Virus record (IMG/VR): IMGVR_UViG_3300010883_000007
Coordinates: 1 to 64,000 of that record
Length of the DNA stretch: 64,000 nucleotides
Direction: 5' to 3' (one strand)
Origin: a virus
This document shows positions 8,545 through 20,465 of the stretch, one piece after another. Made by a program: the position numbers and the translations under genes. Each line of letters begins with the position of its first letter. Position 1 is the stretch's first letter. The notes below the pieces were generated by a model. That model worked only from the letters and a program-made list of their open reading frames with translations, searched no databases and was not told the origin of the DNA.

Positions 8545-11500
8545 TCATGGAGCTGACTTGTTACCAGTTGTTGCAATTCCAACATCGGCGAGGATGATGG
8601 CCTCGGCTAATTTCTCGGCAGACATCTCCACTTTAACAGAGAGATTCACATTGACATTCTCGTGGACCACGGTGAGCTTCTTTCCGTTGGCGAGACTCTT
8701 ACCGATGTCTATTACTGCCATGATCTCTTCACGACTGCCATCCCCAAAGCTCAGCATCTCTGCTTCCAGCTCTGCGAAGGAGTTTTTTATGGCCGCGACC
8801 TTCTCGCCCAGGTTGGGAGGCATCTTGTCGATGGATCCCACTGTAGTGTCGATGAACTTTCCAAAGTTAGTCATTGACTTGATATGAAAATTACCCGAGG
8901 ACTTATAGACCGATGCACCAATTTCGGCCATCGAGGTGATGGCCGACTGGATGCTAGGGACAGACTTCACGAACACCTGGGATAGTCTCGCAATCTCTGC
9001 GGCTTCACCGCCGTCACTACCACCGATGTTCTTGACTTCACCCAAAGCTGAGGTGAAGGCACCCATGGCCTTAAAAGCATCAGGTAGAGCTTTGAGGGAG
9101 TGTCGGTACTTGTAGACGTCGGAGACTCCCTTCCCCTTAACCATCGCGATAATCTTGTTTAGAACATTACCCATCTGGTCGCCTATCACATCAGAGAGTT
9201 CATTGATAAGCAATACGGCGCTAGCGACCCTCTTCTTAAATGTCCCCGGTGTGGATGCAGAACCGGCTGGGGGCATGAATCCGGCCATCTCGCCGATTGC
9301 GCCGGCGAAGTTGCCCACGACACCAAAGGCGTCCGCGATGATCTTAATCCTCGCGGTGATCCCTGCGTCCAGGCTTATGCCTTTGGCCATCTCCAGGATC
9401 GCGCCTAAAACCCGGCCCATTGCTCCGGGGGCTGTGCCTTTGCCGGCGAGAGAGTCTGTTATCTTCTCAATGAGACCACCCGAGCCGAACACAAGATCCA
9501 ACGCGGCAGTAGGCGTCTTAGCGCTCGGGATTATCTTTTTCATGTCCCCTATAACCTTGGCAAACTTTCCTAAGATACCCATTGCTTCGCCAATGATCTT
9601 GATTTTTTCTCCGATGTGTCGGTCCTTCATTCCAGCTGCCATCGTCTTTACAGCGCTAAACACCTTCTGGATATGTCCTCCGGTTCCATCCGTACCCAGC
9701 ATCGCATCCATGACTCCGCTTATAAATTTGAGCGTCGCTTCGAGGCGTTTCGAGGGGTCTCCCTTAGAAGGAACTATGGATCCGACTTCCTTCATAACCT
9801 TAGACATTTTGCCCAACAGTCCTATAGAGTCTGCAATCAGAGGAAGGACTGCCTTAAGCTGCTTGGTAGCCGCCGGGGTTAAGGTTGAGGCCACTTCCTT
9901 GACGCTGAGCATGATCTTAGCGATGCCGTCTGACATTGTCTCCATCATGCAGCTCATAAACTTCGATGTGGCATCCAGAGCCTCGGGATCGAACTTCGAG
10001 CTGAACATTCCCTCTTTCCTCAGAGATTTTAGCATCTCCGGGTCAGGCTTCATGGCCTTCAACAGATCACCAACGGGTTTCATGATCCCAGCAATTATCA
10101 TGGCGCTCTCAACCTGGGCGTCGGTGAGGGTCGTTGAGGTCATCTTGTCTATGAGTCCCTCCAGACCGCCGAGCATAGAGTCCATAAACCCTGCTGCTGA
10201 GTCCATGACTTTCACAGCGCCCTCCGCGTCGCCGCCCATATCACCCAGCCCGGTCACCATCGAGCCCAGGCCTGATATCATCTCCATCAGCGGGGTGATT
10301 GCCTCCATTTTCTCCTTGAACGCGCCAGCATCTCCCATCTCCAGGGCAGCAATATTCGCGACAGCAGGACCCAGGAACTTCTTGAGACCCTCCGCAAGCA
10401 TGAGAATAGCAGCGAATCCAACAGCTGCTACGACAGCTACCATGGGATTGAGGAATACAGCCCCCAGCATGAGTGACGCAGCACCCACACCCACCAGAAC
10501 GGCGAAGAGCAGGCCAAGGGCCTCGAGACCAGTCACCATCGAGCCGAGCTTACCGAGTGGGCCTGACATATTCTTATTGAAGGATGTGAGCGCCGGAGCC
10601 AAGAACTTGCCCACGGCCCAGATGAAGGCTGCTACTGGCAGTAGGCCTATAGCACCGATGGCTGCGATGACTCCAGCGGTGACTGCGATGACTGCCAGAA
10701 TTGCGACTGCTCCGAATATCACCACCAGCTGTAGGAATGTCTTGCCTAATTCCCCCCAGTCCAGCTTGGCTGCCTTAAGAGCACCGGTCATAACACCCAG
10801 GGACCAGATCAGGCCACCGGGGATAGCCATGGCCATTGCGAATAGGGCTATTCCTCCCATTGCTACTGCCGCAATACCTGCTGTAACCCCGGCAAAGATT
10901 GCGATGGGAGCGATAATGGCGATCGCACCAAAGATTCCCACCAGCTTCAAGAAAGTCTTGGCCAGGTCACCCCACTTGACCTTCTTCGAAGCCGTCGACA
11001 TGTGGGCGAAGGCTGGCACGGCGAGCTCTGCTAGTGCCACCGCAAAGGCAGCGACTCCAAGTGTTCCCAGGGAAGCGCCCCAGGCCAGGCCGCCCACGAT
11101 GATTGCGGCCTTTGACATCAATATCATGGAACCCATAACTACTGCAAGGGCGATGAAGATTTTGGCGAGGGCCGACCAGCTGGGGACAGTCTTGGTTGCC
11201 AGATAGAATAATGCTAGAACCAGAACTACGGCCCCTAGGGCAACAAGAAAAGCAGCCACACCTATTAGCGGAATAATCGCTATGATACCGGCAACGCCGG
11301 CAACGATTGCTGCCACTGCTGTGACTGCGATGGCGAGCATGACAATTGCCAGACCGCCGAAGCCCTTGACCAGATCCGGCATCGCTGTGACGATGAGCCC
11401 CCACGCGCTCGACTTCGCGAGCCCTTCCAGGGCGATTGCGAAGAGCACAAGGGTCCCGGCGAAGACGATGGCTCCGAGGAGACCGACGATGGCGGCGCCG

Positions 11501-14250
11501 ATGAGGGGTGCGACGAGGGTTGCTGCGGCCCATGCCATGAGAGCAACAGCAGCGACTGAAACTCCCAGTGCGATCATACCGAGGCCAACGTCCACCCATG
11601 GCACGCCCTTGAAGACCTTGGCTATCACACGGAGCGTCATTGCAAAGACGACACCCGCGGTTGCCATCAGTAAAGCCGCGCCAATCAGGCCGACCATGGC
11701 CATACCAATCGCACCCATTGGGATCTTGCTTCCCACATGTGCGACAACTGCCATGGCAACAACTGCCACTGCGAAGGCAGCCATGGCTCCCAGCACTGTT
11801 TTAATAGGCAGTTTGCTGATGATAGCTGTCACCATTAACACACCCACAGCCATTACTGCCATGGCTGGAAGGAATGAGAGGGCCAGCAGCCCCATCTTGA
11901 GTCCGGCCTGAACTATGGATTTGGCAGGAATCATGGCTATTGTTTGTACGAAGACATTCAATCCCATGGCCATTCCAGAGAAACCCGACTTGAGAGTGTC
12001 ACCCAGCGCCGATGCGCCGCCTCCGCCTCCTGGAATTGTGGGTGTTGCGGATCCCATCATCTTCCCGAGGCCCTTGCCAATGAGAGAGGCACCCTTGGCA
12101 ACGACAGCACCAATCATCGCGTTAGCAACTGCGGTGAGGATCATCTTGGCTATGATAACACCCAGGATGGCCTTGCCCGCCTTGATCAGAAACGGACTAA
12201 CCTTTATGAAAAGGATCTTGAACATTTTAACCAGGGAGGGCTGTATTATCTTCCACATTGTGACAAGAAGATTTCCGAGGGACTTCGCCAGGGACATGAG
12301 TGCTGTCTTGATAGATCCCATCACAGCGCCGCCGCCAGAGAATCCCTTCGACAGCCTCGCAGATATCGTGTCGAGGAGTTTGGCCAGACCTTGTGCTGCC
12401 CTAATCAGCAGGGCTTTGAAGATCACCGCGAAGGTCTTGATCATCGTCTTACCGCCCGCCATGATCTTCTTTCCAGCTGTGCCGCCACTCCCAAAGAATC
12501 CCATGAAGGCATTGGTCATATTCTTGATGAAGCTATCGACACCCGCTTTGGGATCACTCTTGAGGTCGAGAAAGAACTTCTTGAATATTCCCTTAACCTT
12601 CTCCATCAGCCTGGTATAGCGTGCTGGATCAAACAGGTCTGATATACCGGTCATTAGCTGCTTGACCCCGGGGAACATCTGCACAAACATCTTGCCGACC
12701 TGAATGCCCGCCCTGTGCACGATCCTCAGCGACTTTCGAATGTTGCGCATCATCTTTCGGAAGGGTGCGCTCCTCTTGATGCCTCGCTCGAAGCCCTTGG
12801 CAAACGCATCGAAGAAGCCCTTAAAGCCAGACTGGCCGGTTTGGGTCATCTTCTTGATGGAGTCAGCTAATTCCTTCGTGGCCTCCGCCTGGGTCAGTTG
12901 TTTGGACTCAGCATCCTCGGCGCCCTCCATCATCTCATCATAAGATAATCCCATGTTCTTCTGGGAAAGTGCAGTCTTTGCAGCTTCCTCAGAAAGTCCC
13001 ATCTGACTAGCTAGTAGCTTAAGCTCCTGTCGGGACATGTCCTCAACAGATTTACCCGCCTCATGGAAAGATTTTTTCAATATGTCGATGCGTTCAGCAG
13101 GACTCTGGGCATTCATCATCTTCATAGCATCGACATTCATGCCGAAGGCCTGGGAGAGTTGTGCTGCACCCGAAGCGGCGTCCTCGAAGTTATCGAACTT
13201 ATCGATAACCCCCATCATGTCCTTAATCTCCATGCCGAGCTTGGTGGCATAGATTGCAGTGGCACCCAGCTCCTTCCGGGTCATGGAACCAAAATTGGAC
13301 ACATCTCCCTTCATTGTTGCCATGGCCTTGCCAACCACCTTTGCATTAACATCAAAGGCCTTACCCATGTTGATTGCCATGGAGGCGAACTTGGTCTGTT
13401 CCTCCACAGCATCCTTGCCGGCATTTTTGGCCATCTTGAGCATGGTGGCCTGCTGTTCAGCAGTCATGCCTAGAGCCATGCGGTAGGTCATCAGGACACC
13501 CTCCTGCCCCTTTAGATCTCCCATCAACCCATTATAGGCAGCGCCCAGAGCAGTGACCATCTCCTGATTGTACTTCATGGCTGCAGCCACGCCCTCAGGC
13601 CCGAAGCCAAAGACCCTGGCTAGGGACAGACCACTGCCGCCTAGACTTGATGACTCTGATCGGAGTGTTCTTAGAGAATCAGCTGCGGCCTTGCCCTCGT
13701 TGGAAGCAAGAGAGCCCAACTCTCCCCTGATATCCTCCAGGGCCTTTCGAATGGGCGAGTCACCAGAGCCCGCCTGTGCCATCCCAATCAGACCGGAGAA
13801 GATCTTCCAGGGTGTCATAATAACAGTTGCTGCAAGGTTCGCCATGCTCTTGGTCATGGAGAAGAGACCCTTGCCCATCGCAGATATCAGACCCAGGCCT
13901 CCCTTGAAGCCCGAGAGTAAGCCCACTCCGAGGCCGACTGCAGCGCCCTTAGCGGCTGTTACCTTATCCATGAAGCCGCCGGCTGCTTCCTCGGCATCGT
14001 TCATAGCTGCTGTAGTGTCAGTACCGAACCGCTGTGCGTCTGTCGCTGCCTGCTGGAGGCCCGCCTGAACATTATTGAGGCGATCTTCCATCTGGTCCAG
14101 CTGCTCGCACTTGAGAGCCTTGCAGAGCTCCATCGCGATACGAGCCTGGCTATCCAGATGCTTCGACTGATTCTTCAGGATCGCCTCACGATCCTGGAGC
14201 GTCTTGTTTATCTCTTGCTGTATTTTAAGCTGATTGCCGAGATCTGCCAT
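8545..14250 (-). CDS. Tail tape measure protein
   Basis: At 1901 residues this is the longest gene here. The N-terminal region is coiled coil ('MADLGNQLKIQQEINKTLQD'). A very long middle (roughly residues 650-1250) is made of repeated Ala/Gly/Val/Ile-rich hydrophobic helices, and the C-terminal part is again helical. That layout and its position downstream of sheath, tube and gp26-like genes are typical of tape measure proteins, which set tail length and may help DNA enter the cell. Using the usual rule of about 0.15 nm per residue, it would predict a tail near 280 nm (inference). Its high-GC, alanine-rich codons create long open frames on the opposite strand (for example 9155-11206) that are shadows. 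Confidence 0.88.
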   Translation of the reverse strand: MADLGNQLKIQQEINKTLQDREAILKNQSKHLDSQARIAMELCKALKCEQLDQMEDRLNNVQAGLQQAATDAQRFGTDTTAAMNDAEEAAGGFMDKVTAAKGAAVGLGVGLLSGFKGGLGLISAMGKGLFSMTKSMANLAATVIMTPWKIFSGLIGMAQAGSGDSPIRKALEDIRGELGSLASNEGKAAADSLRTLRSESSSLGGSGLSLARVFGFGPEGVAAAMKYNQEMVTALGAAYNGLMGDLKGQEGVLMTYRMALGMTAEQQATMLKMAKNAGKDAVEEQTKFASMAINMGKAFDVNAKVVGKAMATMKGDVSNFGSMTRKELGATAIYATKLGMEIKDMMGVIDKFDNFEDAASGAAQLSQAFGMNVDAMKMMNAQSPAERIDILKKSFHEAGKSVEDMSRQELKLLASQMGLSEEAAKTALSQKNMGLSYDEMMEGAEDAESKQLTQAEATKELADSIKKMTQTGQSGFKGFFDAFAKGFERGIKRSAPFRKMMRNIRKSLRIVHRAGIQVGKMFVQMFPGVKQLMTGISDLFDPARYTRLMEKVKGIFKKFFLDLKSDPKAGVDSFIKNMTNAFMGFFGSGGTAGKKIMAGGKTMIKTFAVIFKALLIRAAQGLAKLLDTISARLSKGFSGGGAVMGSIKTALMSLAKSLGNLLVTMWKIIQPSLVKMFKILFIKVSPFLIKAGKAILGVIIAKMILTAVANAMIGAVVAKGASLIGKGLGKMMGSATPTIPGGGGGASALGDTLKSGFSGMAMGLNVFVQTIAMIPAKSIVQAGLKMGLLALSFLPAMAVMAVGVLMVTAIISKLPIKTVLGAMAAFAVAVVAMAVVAHVGSKIPMGAIGMAMVGLIGAALLMATAGVVFAMTLRVIAKVFKGVPWVDVGLGMIALGVSVAAVALMAWAAATLVAPLIGAAIVGLLGAIVFAGTLVLFAIALEGLAKSSAWGLIVTAMPDLVKGFGGLAIVMLAIAVTAVAAIVAGVAGIIAIIPLIGVAAFLVALGAVVLVLALFYLATKTVPSWSALAKIFIALAVVMGSMILMSKAAIIVGGLAWGASLGTLGVAAFAVALAELAVPAFAHMSTASKKVKWGDLAKTFLKLVGIFGAIAIIAPIAIFAGVTAGIAAVAMGGIALFAMAMAIPGGLIWSLGVMTGALKAAKLDWGELGKTFLQLVVIFGAVAILAVIAVTAGVIAAIGAIGLLPVAAFIWAVGKFLAPALTSFNKNMSGPLGKLGSMVTGLEALGLLFAVLVGVGAASLMLGAVFLNPMVAVVAAVGFAAILMLAEGLKKFLGPAVANIAALEMGDAGAFKEKMEAITPLMEMISGLGSMVTGLGDMGGDAEGAVKVMDSAAGFMDSMLGGLEGLIDKMTSTTLTDAQVESAMIIAGIMKPVGDLLKAMKPDPEMLKSLRKEGMFSSKFDPEALDATSKFMSCMMETMSDGIAKIMLSVKEVASTLTPAATKQLKAVLPLIADSIGLLGKMSKVMKEVGSIVPSKGDPSKRLEATLKFISGVMDAMLGTDGTGGHIQKVFSAVKTMAAGMKDRHIGEKIKIIGEAMGILGKFAKVIGDMKKIIPSAKTPTAALDLVFGSGGLIEKITDSLAGKGTAPGAMGRVLGAILEMAKGISLDAGITARIKIIADAFGVVGNFAGAIGEMAGFMPPAGSASTPGTFKKRVASAVLLINELSDVIGDQMGNVLNKIIAMVKGKGVSDVYKYRHSLKALPDAFKAMGAFTSALGEVKNIGGSDGGEAAEIARLSQVFVKSVPSIQSAITSMAEIGASVYKSSGNFHIKSMTNFGKFIDTTVGSIDKMPPNLGEKVAAIKNSFAELEAEMLSFGDGSREEIMAVIDIGKSLANGKKLTVVHENVNVNLSVKVEMSAEKLAEAIILADVGIATTGNKSAP

Positions 14251-14614: not shown

Positions 14615-14818
14615 CTATGTGAACCTACGAAGTTTTGCCGGCACCTGGGACCTAGCTCTTCCCATCATTTCCCGAGCCTCAGGGTGGTTCGTGTGTGCTG
14701 CACGGTTCCCACCCTCTCCTGACTTCTTAAGCTCTTTATTGATACGTTCAATGAACCACGTTCGCTGCCAGATGGGTATATTATAGACTTCTACATAGGA
14801 GAACCCCATGTAGTACAT
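14615..14818 (-). CDS. Tail assembly chaperone candidate, probably reached by frameshift from the gp26-like gene
   Basis: From ATG 14818 the product has 67 residues, with 'MGFSYVEVYNIPIWQRTWF' followed by a charged helix, a pattern I associate with small ORFs near gp26-type genes. That ATG has no Shine-Dalgarno site. The frame stays open upstream for 17 more codons (GLTPTDKSYYLEHIFLL), which look like part of the same helix. It reaches the run of seven T residues (14876-14870) in the last codons of the upstream gene. A +1 (or -2) shift there would join the two. The pair lies just upstream of the tape measure, where tail assembly chaperones are normally made by frameshifting. An ATG start remains the alternative. 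Confidence 0.6.
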   Translation of the reverse strand: MYYMGFSYVEVYNIPIWQRTWFIERINKELKKSGEGGNRAAHTNHPEAREMMGRARSQVPAKLRRFT

Positions 14819-14852
14819 TAGCAGAAAGATGTGCTCGAGGTAGTAGCTCTTA

Positions 14853-15713
14853 TCAGTTGGTGTCAGGCCAAAAAAACGAGGCCCCCAGGGGGAGCCGCAC
14901 CTCCGAGTGTTCCAGGCAGGAGGGACAGTCCATCCAGGACTTCATCTCAATGCCGGGCTCACTCTTATCGATGAACGTGCGAAGATCCAGGGAATCCCTG
15001 GCAGGCATGTTTCGAATGAAGTGGCTAATCTTGGACTTATCTGTGATATTCTCAATGGAAACAATAGCATGCTGCAGCCTGGTTGTTACCAGTGTATCAG
15101 CCGTGACTCCCTGCTTCTTTCTTCGTTCCATCATAACTGTAATATTGGTCTCATCAATTCCAGTGAGGAAGCGAAATCGAATCTTCTTCTTAGTCACCGG
15201 AAGGGTAAACTCGAACAGGTTCGCGCCCTGGGCAACGGGCTCAATATCGAGGCGGCCGATCGGAAGGTCAGCTAGCTGGAACGACTGCTTGGAGCGCTCG
15301 CCACAGTCTGGGCAGTCGACCTCAACATCGTAGCTCGATCCGTAGCCTGTGATCCGGAGGGCAGTCATAATAGCATTTCTGTCACCGGAGAGCATCTCGT
15401 CCACGTTAATCTGCTTATTGACTAAACACGATTGAAGGAGGTGTGTGATAACTGTCCCCTTCTTAATCAGCGCCCGAGAGGTCAGGATGTCCTCCTCCCG
15501 TGCTGTCATAGCTCGAATCTCAACAGTCTCCTGGCCAGCGAGCGCTGAGTCAGATGGGTATACCACACCACGCGATGGTAGTGGGACAGTCTCGACCGGA
15601 ATCTCAAATCCAAAGTCGTCTCTCATTACATTGTGAGTTTTGAATCCCGCAGACTCAGCCTGTGTGGCTGTAAATACTTCGTTTCGAGATTCTCTAGTTG
15701 GTTCGTCAGACAC
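14853..15713 (-). CDS. gp26-like baseplate hub / tail assembly protein with two CPxC pairs
   Basis: This 286-residue protein resembles the T4 gp26-type baseplate family: 'VPLPSRGVVYP' near residue 45, 'MTAREEDILTSRALIKKG' (69-86), and a late helical domain. Two Cys pairs (C134/C137 in 'DCPDCG' and C263/C266 in 'DCPSCL') could bind one zinc ion. The start is GTG 15713 with AAGGGAG six bases upstream. The last codons read TCG TTT TTT TGG. The run of seven T residues is a plausible slip site into the downstream chaperone-like ORF. Its position before the tape measure fits a tail assembly role. The family call rests on motifs and context. Confidence 0.7.
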   Translation of the reverse strand: MSDEPTRESRNEVFTATQAESAGFKTHNVMRDDFGFEIPVETVPLPSRGVVYPSDSALAGQETVEIRAMTAREEDILTSRALIKKGTVITHLLQSCLVNKQINVDEMLSGDRNAIMTALRITGYGSSYDVEVDCPDCGERSKQSFQLADLPIGRLDIEPVAQGANLFEFTLPVTKKKIRFRFLTGIDETNITVMMERRKKQGVTADTLVTTRLQHAIVSIENITDKSKISHFIRNMPARDSLDLRTFIDKSEPGIEMKSWMDCPSCLEHSEVRLPLGASFFWPDTN

Positions 15714-15785: not shown

Positions 15786-16289
15786 TTAGCTGCTGTCATT
15801 ATCCTGGGCATACACAGCCTTAGAATGTCTATCAGCCACACTGGCAGCCCACGCATCAGGCTTGACACGACAGTCTAAGCCGACACCGGTCGTGTATCCT
15901 GAGAGCATGTCCGCATATCTCGAAGTCGCGTGAGGTGTGCCCTTTGGGCTTATGTCTAGGTGCACCTCCAGATCGCTCACCCCGCAGTCAAAGAGGGTCA
16001 TGGATAAATCAATGGATTTCTGTGCTTCCAGCAGCATTCTCTCACGTAAGTTAGGTATAGACTTTGGATCAACCGTGTGTCTCTGATAGAAATACTTTCC
16101 GCCCTTGCGGAGGGACTCGTTGTAGAGACAAATAACAGTGGCAAATACACACTCGGTACTGCCAGGGAAGGAGTCAGTGCTCACGTATATCCTTCCGCCT
16201 GTTTTCTGATGCTGCCTCGCGGAATCTATAATAGACTCAAAGGGCACCCGCAGACCGCTGCCGTGACGCCAGGTCCGGTCGGAGATCAT
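15786..16289 (-). CDS. RNase H-fold protein of the YkuK/DUF458 type
   Basis: The 167-residue protein contains the acidic motifs of the YkuK-like RNase H family. 'YVSTDSF' (first Asp, about residue 39) is followed by 'FATVICLY', 'YFYQRH', 'EVHLDISPKG' (second Asp), and a C-terminal 'KPDAWAASVADRHSK' with a third Asp. The fold is that of RNase H/RuvC nucleases. The biochemical activity of this family is not well established to my knowledge, so nuclease function is inferred. It is an odd resident of the tail cluster, between the tube and gp26-like genes. A terminator lies upstream (16420-16452), so it probably has its own promoter in the 16290-16419 gap. Confidence 0.75.
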   Translation of the reverse strand: MISDRTWRHGSGLRVPFESIIDSARQHQKTGGRIYVSTDSFPGSTECVFATVICLYNESLRKGGKYFYQRHTVDPKSIPNLRERMLLEAQKSIDLSMTLFDCGVSDLEVHLDISPKGTPHATSRYADMLSGYTTGVGLDCRVKPDAWAASVADRHSKAVYAQDNDSS

Positions 16290-16480: not shown

Positions 16481-16969
16481 CTAGTACTGGAGAACTGCGT
16501 TATCGAAGCGAAGAGTGATGGAAACCTCCGTGGGATCTTCTCCCGCATAGTCCAGCTCGCCGAAGGCTGCAGCAGTGAGGAAGCAACCCTTGAGGTCCCA
16601 GAGCTCAACCACTGTTCCAACTGGATCCAGTAGCTTAAGCTGGCAGTCACGCTTGTAGAAATCAGCATAGCCTGCACGGCCTGAGACTGACTCAAAGTGT
16701 GTTCGGACCCACTCCATTACCTGTTGTGCCCCGGAGGGTGCGATTGGATCGTGAAGTGTCACAGTGATCGCATCGAACTTCGTCTTTCCGGCAAGATACC
16801 GGGTGGAGTTCATGAAGGAAATCTCCTGCTCTGCGGTGTTAATGGTCGGCCGAGCGGCTGTCTTCATTAAGAATGAATCGAGTCCCTCAATAGCGAATAC
16901 CCATCTAAATTTGCGCTTTGGCTCAAACTTATTGGGTAGCATATCAGTGACTGAAAGTGTTTCTGCCAT
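16481..16969 (-). CDS. Tail tube protein (gp19-like)
   Basis: The 162-residue protein matches T4 gp19-type tube subunits in length and pattern: an N-terminal 'PKRKFRWVFAIEGLDSF', a middle 'TKFDAITVTLHDPIAP', 'VMEWVRTHFES', and a C-terminal 'EVSITLRFDNAVLQY'. It polymerises into the inner tube through which DNA passes. ATG 16969 has TTTAGGAG upstream. It directly follows the two sheath genes, the normal sheath-tube order, and a strong terminator lies just downstream, so the sheath-tube transcript probably ends there. High expression is expected. Confidence 0.92.
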   Translation of the reverse strand: MAETLSVTDMLPNKFEPKRKFRWVFAIEGLDSFLMKTAARPTINTAEQEISFMNSTRYLAGKTKFDAITVTLHDPIAPSGAQQVMEWVRTHFESVSGRAGYADFYKRDCQLKLLDPVGTVVELWDLKGCFLTAAAFGELDYAGEDPTEVSITLRFDNAVLQY

Positions 16970-17024: not shown

Positions 17025-20000
17025 TTATATCTCTGCACCCTGGTTAGTTACAACAAAGTCGAGGGAGATGAATTCAACAGCACGTGTGGGCTGGAGAAAG
17101 ATCTTTCCGCGAATTGTGTTGTTCTCAACATCAGACTGCGTTGTTGTTGTTGTGTCGATCTGTACCTTAAACCTATCAAGTCCCTGCTGGGCCTGGATTC
17201 GCTGGAGCACGGGATTGACTGCGTTGGCGAATCTGGCCAGTGTCTCCTCACGGTTCGGCTCGAAGAGCAGGGTATTGGCGATGCGTCGAACCCGGCGGCG
17301 AATCTCAATCAGCAGACGTCTCACATTGACCCGGTCCAGCGCGGACTGGGCGGCTTGGAGTGTCTTTTGACCGAAGATTACAACACCTGGTGTGTGGGGG
17401 AAGGATGTGATGGGATTCACATCGCCCTCATACAGTGCATCCATATTAGATCGATTGAGCTTCACCTGTGATTCTACAACAGAAACCAGCGCACCGCGGG
17501 TGAAACCTGCGGGAGCGAACCACGGGTGGGCCACTGCGTCATTCAGAGCGAATGCCCCAAGTACAGCAACTGAGGGTGGACACCGAACATTGGTTTTCGT
17601 TGCCGGATCTGTGATCACGACATCAGGGAAGTATGCAGCCGCGAAAGACGTATCGAGATTACGGGCCTCGAACCTCTCAACAGTGTTACTCACGTCGATA
17701 ATCTGAGCAGCTGAGGAGGTTACGAACTCATTGACTGTATCCTTCTCCTCAATGTCCATCAGCAGGAGCGCATCAAATCTGCCTTCCACAGCATCGATGG
17801 CGTAGTCACTAACTGACTCGTGTCGAATTCCAGGAATGGAGAGCAGCTGAATGTCAACGTCGGCTTTCTCCTCCATCACATCAATTGCCTTTCTATATGC
17901 AGCAATTGTTGGTCCCTTAACACCACCCTGATTAGCAGAATCTCCGAATTCTCGGCGACAGGCTACATCTAGCATCTTGGATTTCGCTACGTCGAAGTGA
18001 TTGACGCCGTTGTACCCTCCCTGGACAGGGAGTGTGAACTTCAGGTACTTCCGAGAGGGAAGGTGGTTGAAGTCCTTGGACGCGTCGAGGAATCGAGTGA
18101 CATCGCGCTGATAGACAGTACCATCAGAATCAGTCAAGGTTGTTGACTTTACTCCGGTTCTCCGGTATACCGCAGCACCCCATCTTGAGTTAATGGGCCT
18201 ATCGTTGGATCCTGTTGATACCTGGATCTGCTCGAGGGAGAAGAAGTTATTGTTGAATCGGTCAGCATCGAGAATAGTACCGCCAGAGTCCACAGTACCC
18301 TCATTATCACCCACTATGACCTTTCGCCAGGTGTCAGAAAAGTTGGGATAGTACTTGAAGTGATTCACCAATGATGGGTCGATCTTCGATCTAGCATTGG
18401 GTCTCGCCTGGTCGTCCTTGACCTCCCACTGGAGACCCCAAGTGAAGTGGGCCTTTACCCTCTTCTTGGGAGAGTCACCAATCGTGAGATGCTCACGCAT
18501 GGGAAGGGGCGGCTGAACTACACTATAAGCAATGTCAACATCCAGACCGTGGGCATCAGATCCCTGACCGGTACTGCCGGTGATAAATCCTTCGAGGTGA
18601 CCTCCGGTTAGCGTTCCGGTTGAACCACTAGTCACCAGGTGATGGGGGCCACGGAAGCCACATGGGAGCGCGGAGGGGTCTACTACAAGATTCTCAACAT
18701 CAGAGTGAACCTCAACACGTACGTAAGAAGAAGCATTCGGGTGTGAACCCTCAATTCTCAACTTCTGGGCACCTGACTTCTGATCAAAGTCGTAGTACAT
18801 ATTCATATCACCCACGACACGGGCTACATAACGCTCTGATGTGGGATCCATCTGCAGCCCACGAAAGCTCTCCAGAACCACAGGATTTCCGTCGGTATCT
18901 GAGAAATCTCGGATCAAGAGGTCGAACTTGCCGTATGTGGCGTTCTCATTATTGCTTGACTGAATGTTCTCAATCGTTATCTTGATCAGACTATTTGGGC
19001 GATCACCGTCATCCAGGGCGTGAAGCCGAAGGAGATTCTTGTTGTTAGCACCAAACTTCTGAGAGATGATCCAGGGAGACTTCGCTGTCTTGAATCTGTC
19101 CTCCCAGTTATCATAATTGGGACTGGTTGCTGTCCCCACATCTCTTCCTTGGCTGCCGGTCACCAGGAGCGCTAGCTCGTTCGCGCGCCCCACAGCGGAG
19201 TCTGCTGTAGCGGCAATTACGTTCGTTCCCGTGAGGGTGAGGTGTGTGGGGTAGACATCAAAGCTCGAGTAGAGGAGATGACCAGCCTGCTCAATCTTGG
19301 TGGGATCCCTGTTTAGAATCTTTGAGATATACTGCGGCGCGGCCGGATCTAGTGAGCACGTAAGAATGTTGGGATACGTGTCCTGCGCCTTGTGGCCATT
19401 GAGCAGCATCACAAAGTTCTGCTGACCGTTTGTGAGGTCCACCGTGCCGTGGCTCGCTCCGGAATCACCCTGGTCAACACCACCAGTAAAGGTAGACGGA
19501 ACATTAACACTAGAATTAGTATTCCAGTTTGCTGCATTACTAAGTGTAATTGTTGAATTTCCTGATGATCCTACTGTATCTTGCGTAATTGTAACTTGTC
19601 CGGATGCCGGATTTGTTGCTGTCACATCAAGAGAGCTAGCATTGATTGCGGTGAAAAGTGCTGTAGCGAAACCGGCACCTCCCGATCCATCAACGGCCGT
19701 CGCACCAGCTGTTACAACCCCGTCATTAGTATCATCAACTTCAAATACTACTGACGTTGCGCCGGCATCTACTATTGCTATTGTAGTTTCTTCATTCGGC
19801 TTGTCGCTAAAAGTAAATGTTGCAGAACCAGCTACTGCTGTAGCGTCCCCAAACACACCCTTGGCAGACTGGTTGGCCAGTGGATCATTGTTGACTGCAA
19901 ACGTTGAGGACAGTGCCAGAAGGACACCGGAGGGTGCCATCAGCACACCCCTCAAAATTGGGTGGGCTGTGTCAGTCTGAATTCCCGCATCAGCGAGCAT

Positions 20001-20465
20001 TGTGCCATTGTTCTGTTCGCAGAGTGCAGCCAAGAAGTATGTTCTTCCCTCAACACCGGTTGTGGCAGCATTTGCGCCGGCGTATACGTTGTCACCCACA
20101 AGACCATTGGCCTGCACTTGACGAGCGCCTACTACGAATCCCGCATTTACCACACGCCCTGAGTTGTTGCCACCGGATTGTCGCTGAGTGCCGTTTCCTA
20201 CACCCAGAACCTTCACATAGGTTCCAGCTCGGGCATTTCTCATCCACTCATTCATAGCGAGCGGGCCGAACTTTTCTCCATCAGTTGCGCCGAATTCGGC
20301 TACGAAGTCTTGGTATGTCGCAACAGTGATTGGGACAAATGCCCGTCCCTTCTGCGAAGTTCCGATGACACCTGCAGGTACACCCTGAGGACTTATCGCC
20401 GTGGGGCCACTAAGGTCAATTTCCCTTGTGCTTACGCCGGCGCTCTTAAAGGTCAGTTCAGCCAT
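17025..20465 (-). CDS. Tail sheath protein 2, carrying an inserted beta-rich module
   Basis: This 1146-residue sheath paralogue starts with 'TFKSAGVSTREIDLSG', 'PAGVIGTSQKGRAFVP', and ends with the sheath core: 'WFAPAGFTRGALVSV', 'GVVIFGQKTLQAAQSALDRV', 'RAVEFISLDFVVTNQGAEI'. T4 gp18 is 659 residues, so this one has large insertions. One insertion (about residues 207-338, bases 19450-19850) is a module also found two to three times in the gene at 45788-49471, and its DNA is visibly more AT-rich than its surroundings. ATG 20465 has TTAGGAGC upstream. It follows sheath 1 by 48 bases. The module would be expected to project from the tail surface (inference). Confidence 0.88.
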   Translation of the reverse strand: MAELTFKSAGVSTREIDLSGPTAISPQGVPAGVIGTSQKGRAFVPITVATYQDFVAEFGATDGEKFGPLAMNEWMRNARAGTYVKVLGVGNGTQRQSGGNNSGRVVNAGFVVGARQVQANGLVGDNVYAGANAATTGVEGRTYFLAALCEQNNGTMLADAGIQTDTAHPILRGVLMAPSGVLLALSSTFAVNNDPLANQSAKGVFGDATAVAGSATFTFSDKPNEETTIAIVDAGATSVVFEVDDTNDGVVTAGATAVDGSGGAGFATALFTAINASSLDVTATNPASGQVTITQDTVGSSGNSTITLSNAANWNTNSSVNVPSTFTGGVDQGDSGASHGTVDLTNGQQNFVMLLNGHKAQDTYPNILTCSLDPAAPQYISKILNRDPTKIEQAGHLLYSSFDVYPTHLTLTGTNVIAATADSAVGRANELALLVTGSQGRDVGTATSPNYDNWEDRFKTAKSPWIISQKFGANNKNLLRLHALDDGDRPNSLIKITIENIQSSNNENATYGKFDLLIRDFSDTDGNPVVLESFRGLQMDPTSERYVARVVGDMNMYYDFDQKSGAQKLRIEGSHPNASSYVRVEVHSDVENLVVDPSALPCGFRGPHHLVTSGSTGTLTGGHLEGFITGSTGQGSDAHGLDVDIAYSVVQPPLPMREHLTIGDSPKKRVKAHFTWGLQWEVKDDQARPNARSKIDPSLVNHFKYYPNFSDTWRKVIVGDNEGTVDSGGTILDADRFNNNFFSLEQIQVSTGSNDRPINSRWGAAVYRRTGVKSTTLTDSDGTVYQRDVTRFLDASKDFNHLPSRKYLKFTLPVQGGYNGVNHFDVAKSKMLDVACRREFGDSANQGGVKGPTIAAYRKAIDVMEEKADVDIQLLSIPGIRHESVSDYAIDAVEGRFDALLLMDIEEKDTVNEFVTSSAAQIIDVSNTVERFEARNLDTSFAAAYFPDVVITDPATKTNVRCPPSVAVLGAFALNDAVAHPWFAPAGFTRGALVSVVESQVKLNRSNMDALYEGDVNPITSFPHTPGVVIFGQKTLQAAQSALDRVNVRRLLIEIRRRVRRIANTLLFEPNREETLARFANAVNPVLQRIQAQQGLDRFKVQIDTTTTTQSDVENNTIRGKIFLQPTRAVEFISLDFVVTNQGAEI
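19450..19850 (-). repeat. Inserted beta-rich module shared with appendage proteins
   Basis: Within sheath 2 this segment encodes the order 'FTFSDKPNEET', 'VFEVDDTNDG', 'LTITQ-like' strand, 'GNSTITLSNAANWNT', 'SVNVPSTFTGG'. The same blocks in the same order occur in the LamG-like protein at 48090-48860, with nucleotide similarity (for example AGACGGAACRTTAACACTAG at about 19494 and 48118). Absent from sheath 1. Confidence 0.8.

Follow-up and report, generated by a model that had tools for sequence, protein, structure and literature searches.

We propose that a locus on the - strand of a 64,000-nucleotide stretch of viral DNA (the window; the full virus record has 104,452 bases) encodes the tail assembly chaperone of a contractile-tailed phage, and that the long form of this chaperone is made by a +1 frameshift at a T7/TGG site; we put the probability of this reading at about 0.93. 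A sequence-only reading of the window had suggested that a ribosomal frameshift joins the gp26-like gene to the next ORF. Comparison with relatives supports this suggestion: the shift site recurs in 80/80 homologs, with the downstream frame offset by +1 in 79/79, and is thus not a product of chance, and the extension is under protein-type selection.

The tail gene locus and its two reading frames

The tail genes of the window follow one another on the - strand in the order sheath, tail tube, RNase H-like protein, gp26-like gene, second frame, a 96-aa ORF and tape measure (Table 1). The gp26-like protein (TAC-N) is a member of PF12322 (T4_baseplate), which it matches with 65 bits against a curated cut-off of 24.5 and which also matches T4 gp51 (177.5 bits) and S-PM2 gp26 (239.2 bits); phrog_150, a second family that it matches, is labelled 'baseplate hub'. 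A role as tail assembly chaperone had been suggested from position, and it is consistent with both the PF12322 membership and the placement of the gene between those for the tail tube and the probable tape measure. As in the lambda G/GT class, two overlapping frames sit between these two genes. The product of the second frame (TAC-C) matches DUF6760 (PF20546) with 20.5 bits (E 5e-4), below the curated cut-off of 27 bits, and the two are therefore related at most.

Judged from position, length and composition only, the 1901-aa ORF probably encodes the tape measure protein, on which the chaperone would be expected to act; it had no family match, and BLASTP against the tape measure of phage immuto gave no convincing match. 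The PF04308 RNase H-like gene occupies an unusual place, between tail tube and tail chaperone. The sheath protein, of 1146 aa, is unusually long and ends in the sheath C-terminal domain.

Table 1. Features of the tail gene locus in the window.
Feature	Position	Strand	Description
TAC-N, gp26-like short tail assembly chaperone	14853..15713	-	286 aa, GTG start; PF12322 E 1.1e-17, phrog_150 E 2.3e-22
Shift site TTT TTT TGG	14868..14876	-	P-site UUU 14873-14871, A-site UGG 14870-14868
TAC-C, second frame	14615..14869	-	84 codons; supported by +1 frame in 79/79 analysable relatives and by dN/dS
First ATG of second frame	14816..14818	-	Met inside TAC-C, not likely a start
Probable tape measure protein	8545..14250	-	1901 aa; position, length, hydrophobic middle part
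Tail tube protein	16481..16969	-	phrog_4542 E 5.7e-31
Tail sheath protein	17025..20465	-	1146 aa; PF17482 E 3.4e-08
RNase H-like protein	15786..16289	-	PF04308 E 4.6e-23

Read on the - strand, the sequence across the site is TCG TTT TTT TGG CCT GAC ACC AAC TGA, in which the run of seven T residues occupies 14876-14870 and the TGA that closes the 0 frame occupies 14855-14853. The second frame starts with GGC at 14869-14867, ends at 14615 and has its first ATG 17 codons past the join; the T run, frames, stop and ATG had all been placed correctly to the base by the sequence-only reading. Fusion of the two parts (TAC-NC) gives a protein of 365 aa. Followed 5' from the join, the second frame runs for 24 codons without a stop, and none of these is ATG, GTG or TTG; it therefore has no start codon of its own before 14818. 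Within the 14 large genes of the window an in-frame YTT TGG occurs once, at the shift site; since codon frequencies predict about two, this count is unremarkable by itself.

Conservation of the site and direction of the proposed shift

To assemble near relatives we scanned IMG/VR, which yielded 80 loci with 52-73% identity to the gp26-like protein. All of them keep YTT TGG CC at the same place, with TTT TTT, TTC TTT or TTT CTT before TGG CC, and in all of them the 0 frame stops 4-6 codons after the start of TGG. The homologous downstream frame lies at +1 in each of the 79 loci that run far enough, and spans 71-93 codons where it is complete. In 68/68 non-redundant loci TGG is preceded by T (57 TTT, 11 CTT); elsewhere in the same genes, TTT makes up 61% of Phe codons (TTC 39%) and about 30% of Leu codons are CTT. 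Because the loci are related to each other, we claim no exact probability for the invariant T. As this T lies 5' of the new frame, dual-frame coding cannot account for its constancy, whereas P-site re-pairing can.

With regard to direction, a lambda-like -1 shift had been excluded, and this exclusion holds: the -1 frame ends immediately in the window (TTG GCC TGA), and in 64/80 loci (window included) it meets a stop after 2 codons, unlike at a canonical -1 slippery site (X XXY YYZ), where the second frame would be open at -1. Shifts of +1 and -2 had been treated as equivalent. Although both lead to the identical downstream frame, they do not stand on an equal footing. A -2 shift, as in phage Mu, would give one extra residue (SFFFGLTP rather than SFFGLTPTDK), and the T7 of the window, taken alone, permits the re-pairing that it demands. 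However, at the homologous TTC TTT TGG and TTT CTT TGG sites of the window's clade, and at the TTT CGN and TTT CAG sites of SP-15-type and Streptomyces phages, re-pairing one base forward is kept (UUU or CUU to UUU or UUC) while re-pairing two bases back is lost; among the relatives as a whole, the TTC TTT, TTT CTT and CTG TTT variants depart from the Mu-type pattern. Since the variants retain only the forward re-pairing, we take the shift to be +1 and regard a -2 shift as very unlikely. Of the two features whose conservation had been proposed as a check, the open frame is conserved, but the T run is not essential, as sites reading TTT CTT TGG, TTT TAC and TTT CGN occur.

Evidence for translation of the second frame and a proposed mechanism

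A further alternative, which we consider less likely still, is that TAC-C is a separate gene whose translation begins, through reinitiation or coupling, at the ATG at 14818. Codon 17-18 of the second frame is indeed Met, within LMYYMGF, in 73/80 near loci, and the proposed check that the ATG be unconserved is thus borne out only in part: in the remote relatives Mel-JY01, immuto and L090 (a contig binned as Woesearchaeota) the Met is gone and the frame is open to the shift site. Moreover, the ATG had been described as lacking a ribosome site, and we found no Shine-Dalgarno match at it in the window or, more broadly, in 73/79 ATG-bearing loci. The 17 codons before the ATG had been judged to read as natural protein, consistent with a dN/dS of 0.08 (54 close pairs) for codons 8-17 of the second frame, which lie past the 0-frame stop but ahead of the ATG. 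After the ATG the value is 0.07, so that selection is equally strong on both sides of it; the two remaining frames of this DNA contain stops and lack such a pattern. Only a fusion would translate these ten codons, and a separate gene would also leave the invariant YTT TGG CC unexplained. In the window's clade we found no relative with a separate ORF bearing a conserved ATG and ribosome site, and none that had lost the extension. Frameshifting is the only economical reading of the second frame. Least credible is a sequencing or assembly error, or RNA-polymerase slippage, on T7: a homopolymer of 7 bases invites errors, and transcription can slip on long T runs, but the identical frame break recurs in independent contigs and isolate genomes, the early 0-frame stop is universal in the near set, and several variants (TTTCTTT, TTTCG) share the break without a long homopolymer, which removes both as a general explanation.

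For slippage in vivo, its efficiency and the cause of the pause, we propose a mechanism in which most ribosomes would translate TAC-N and terminate at 14853, while a minority would pause when UUU occupies the P site and UGG the A site. The P-site Phe-tRNA would then slip one base forward, from UUU to UUU, skipping one U, and decoding would restart at GGC (14869) and run in the +1 frame to 14615, producing the 365-aa TAC-NC. The UGG codon, which is used 6.8 times per 1000 codons in the phage and here has a CC context, may be the slow step. In 64 loci there was no consistent signal of a stimulatory RNA structure up- or downstream (mean z -0.2 to -0.9), and a Shine-Dalgarno-like stimulator is not conserved, the upstream Gly-Ala codons being free to vary at third positions.

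The bacterial prfB gene, encoding release factor 2, contains a +1 site, CUU UGA, at which the P-site CUU slips to UUU. The TTT CTT TGG variants would re-pair likewise, from CUU to UUU; however, the A-site codon is a stop in prfB and the sense codon UGG in the window, where there is no conserved Shine-Dalgarno-like stimulator. In phage lambda, the major short form GpG and the minor long form GpGT bind the tape measure, and the C-domain links to tube subunits (PMC5009743). By analogy, TAC-NC is most likely a long tail assembly chaperone like GpGT; TAC-N (major) and TAC-NC (minor) would both bind the tape measure protein and take part in recruiting tube subunits, to which the C-domain would provide the link. 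Lambda shifts by -1, whereas the window locus would shift by +1; the likeness is one of functional class.

Homologous sites in other phages

In wider scans we called frames by openness and by an HMM of +1 C-domains. The +1 architecture is present in the isolated phages Mel-JY01 (Microcystis), immuto (Flavobacterium), RM378, SP-15, LIS04 and BRock (Streptomyces); of these, the Rhodothermus phage RM378, reached via Mel-JY01 (26% identity), has TTT TTT TGG with an open +1 frame. Among Bacteroidota/Microcystis-type contigs the C-domain lies at +1 in 77/79, at -1 in one (L172), and one is without a frame call; their sites are mostly TTT TTT TGG CCT or TTT TTT TAC CCT. SP-15-type loci are open at +1 in 29/32 cases (17 confirmed by the HMM), and the three at -1 are distant matches that group with cyanophages in a tree. 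All 15 Streptomyces-type loci are open at +1; the HMM recognises the C-domain in only two of them.

T4-like cyanophages shift the other way: 80/80 have the C-domain at -1 on T TTT TTC, at the same Phe-Phe position, and all 80 of these C-domains are recognised by the HMM made from +1 C-domains. Comparison of the +1 and -1 C-domain profiles gave a probability of 95.8%. In the jumbo phages RaK2, Deifobo and RAS14 the -1 frame is likewise open at this position. A separate observation, which counts against the generality of the +1 model, concerns L172, a relative of another clade: near position 2247, TTC TTC TGG replaces TTT TTT TGG and the C-domain is at -1, reflecting either a natural switch of direction or an assembly indel.

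A tree of 77 TAC-N proteins separates cyanophages and T4 (99/98) from a mostly +1 group that includes the jumbo -1 phages; direction labels need about 6 changes on this tree, a count that is unsure given several long branches. We think it probable that these proteins form one chaperone family in which the position of the shift and the C-domain were kept while the direction switched more than once, with the bases of the site setting the direction. Within this family reading, +1 would prevail in the majority of the lineages sampled, namely the window's clade and the Bacteroidota/Microcystis-type, SP-15-type and Streptomyces phages, and -1 in cyanophages and jumbo phages, with in-frame fusion or separate genes elsewhere, and a few bases would decide between them, UUU UGG or UUU CGN as against U UUU UUC. 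The C-terminus of T4 gp51 has a motif in register with TAC-C, but the alignment is not significant, nor is that of the fusion profile with whole T4 gp51, though both match PF12322.

One Bacteroidota genome carries PF12322 and DUF6760 in one ORF, both over cut-off, and in 396 Bacteroidota-side genomes DUF6760 exceeded its cut-off at three loci, two of them in-frame fusions. In two Bacteroidota genomes (L110, 871-1626, and L111), PF12322/DUF6760-like sequences fused in one frame adjoin a tail-tube-like gene; these loci probably belong to a contractile injection system or to the tail of a phage. At L109 (647-1194, - strand) a shorter gp26-like gene follows the tube gene, and a DUF6760 frame is then open at -1 across the stop. 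The two-frame arrangement of the window was also seen on contigs binned as Halobacteriovorax, Flavobacteriales, Methylococcaceae and Woesearchaeota genomes (L086-L090), in the Methylococcaceae bin at two places on one 306-kb contig; these are probably phage contigs in bins. A search of plasmids gave no match.

Vladimirov, Gautam and Davidson (2022, Virology 566:9-15) reportedly proposed frameshifting, conserved in several T4-like groups, with T4 using separate genes 26 and 51. Their work is cited in PMC10885494 and PMC12846349, and a later paper refers to it in connection with poly-T -1 signals. The T4-like chaperones (gp26/gp51, PF12322) share protein family and gene position with the window locus, and the cyanophage C-domain is homologous to TAC-C; in contrast to the window's clade, which shifts +1 at YTT TGG, cyanophages shift -1 at T TTT TTC, and in T4 genes 26 and 51 are separate rather than joined frames. 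Shifts of +1 have been proposed for tail chaperones of haloarchaeal myoviruses (HF1 group, HSTV-2; PMC7230728, PMC5009743). These also lie between tail tube and tape measure genes, and their TTT CGC motif resembles the Streptomyces-phage sites of the window's family; TAC-N of HF1 is only 156 aa compared with 286 aa in the window, and the likeness is one of arrangement and motif.

Frameshifting of tail chaperones is thus of a known kind, while the widespread +1 form and the switch of direction at one homologous site look new. The findings also correct annotation: public genomes name the first part baseplate hub or hypothetical protein, and omit, shorten or misplace the start of the second. In the records concerned (L082-L085, L092, L100), the C-domain appears as a 36-aa ORF in immuto, as a 39-aa ORF in SP-15, not at all in LIS04, and in Mel-JY01 as an ORF annotated from a TTG start inside the first gene. 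Our results further point to DUF6760-like proteins as tail chaperone C-domains. The site represents a deeply conserved +1 frameshift in phages, with the natural variants YUU UGG, UUU UAC, UUU CGN and UUU CAG, and because homologous -1 sites exist alongside them, the determinants of direction can be tested by swaps of short sites.
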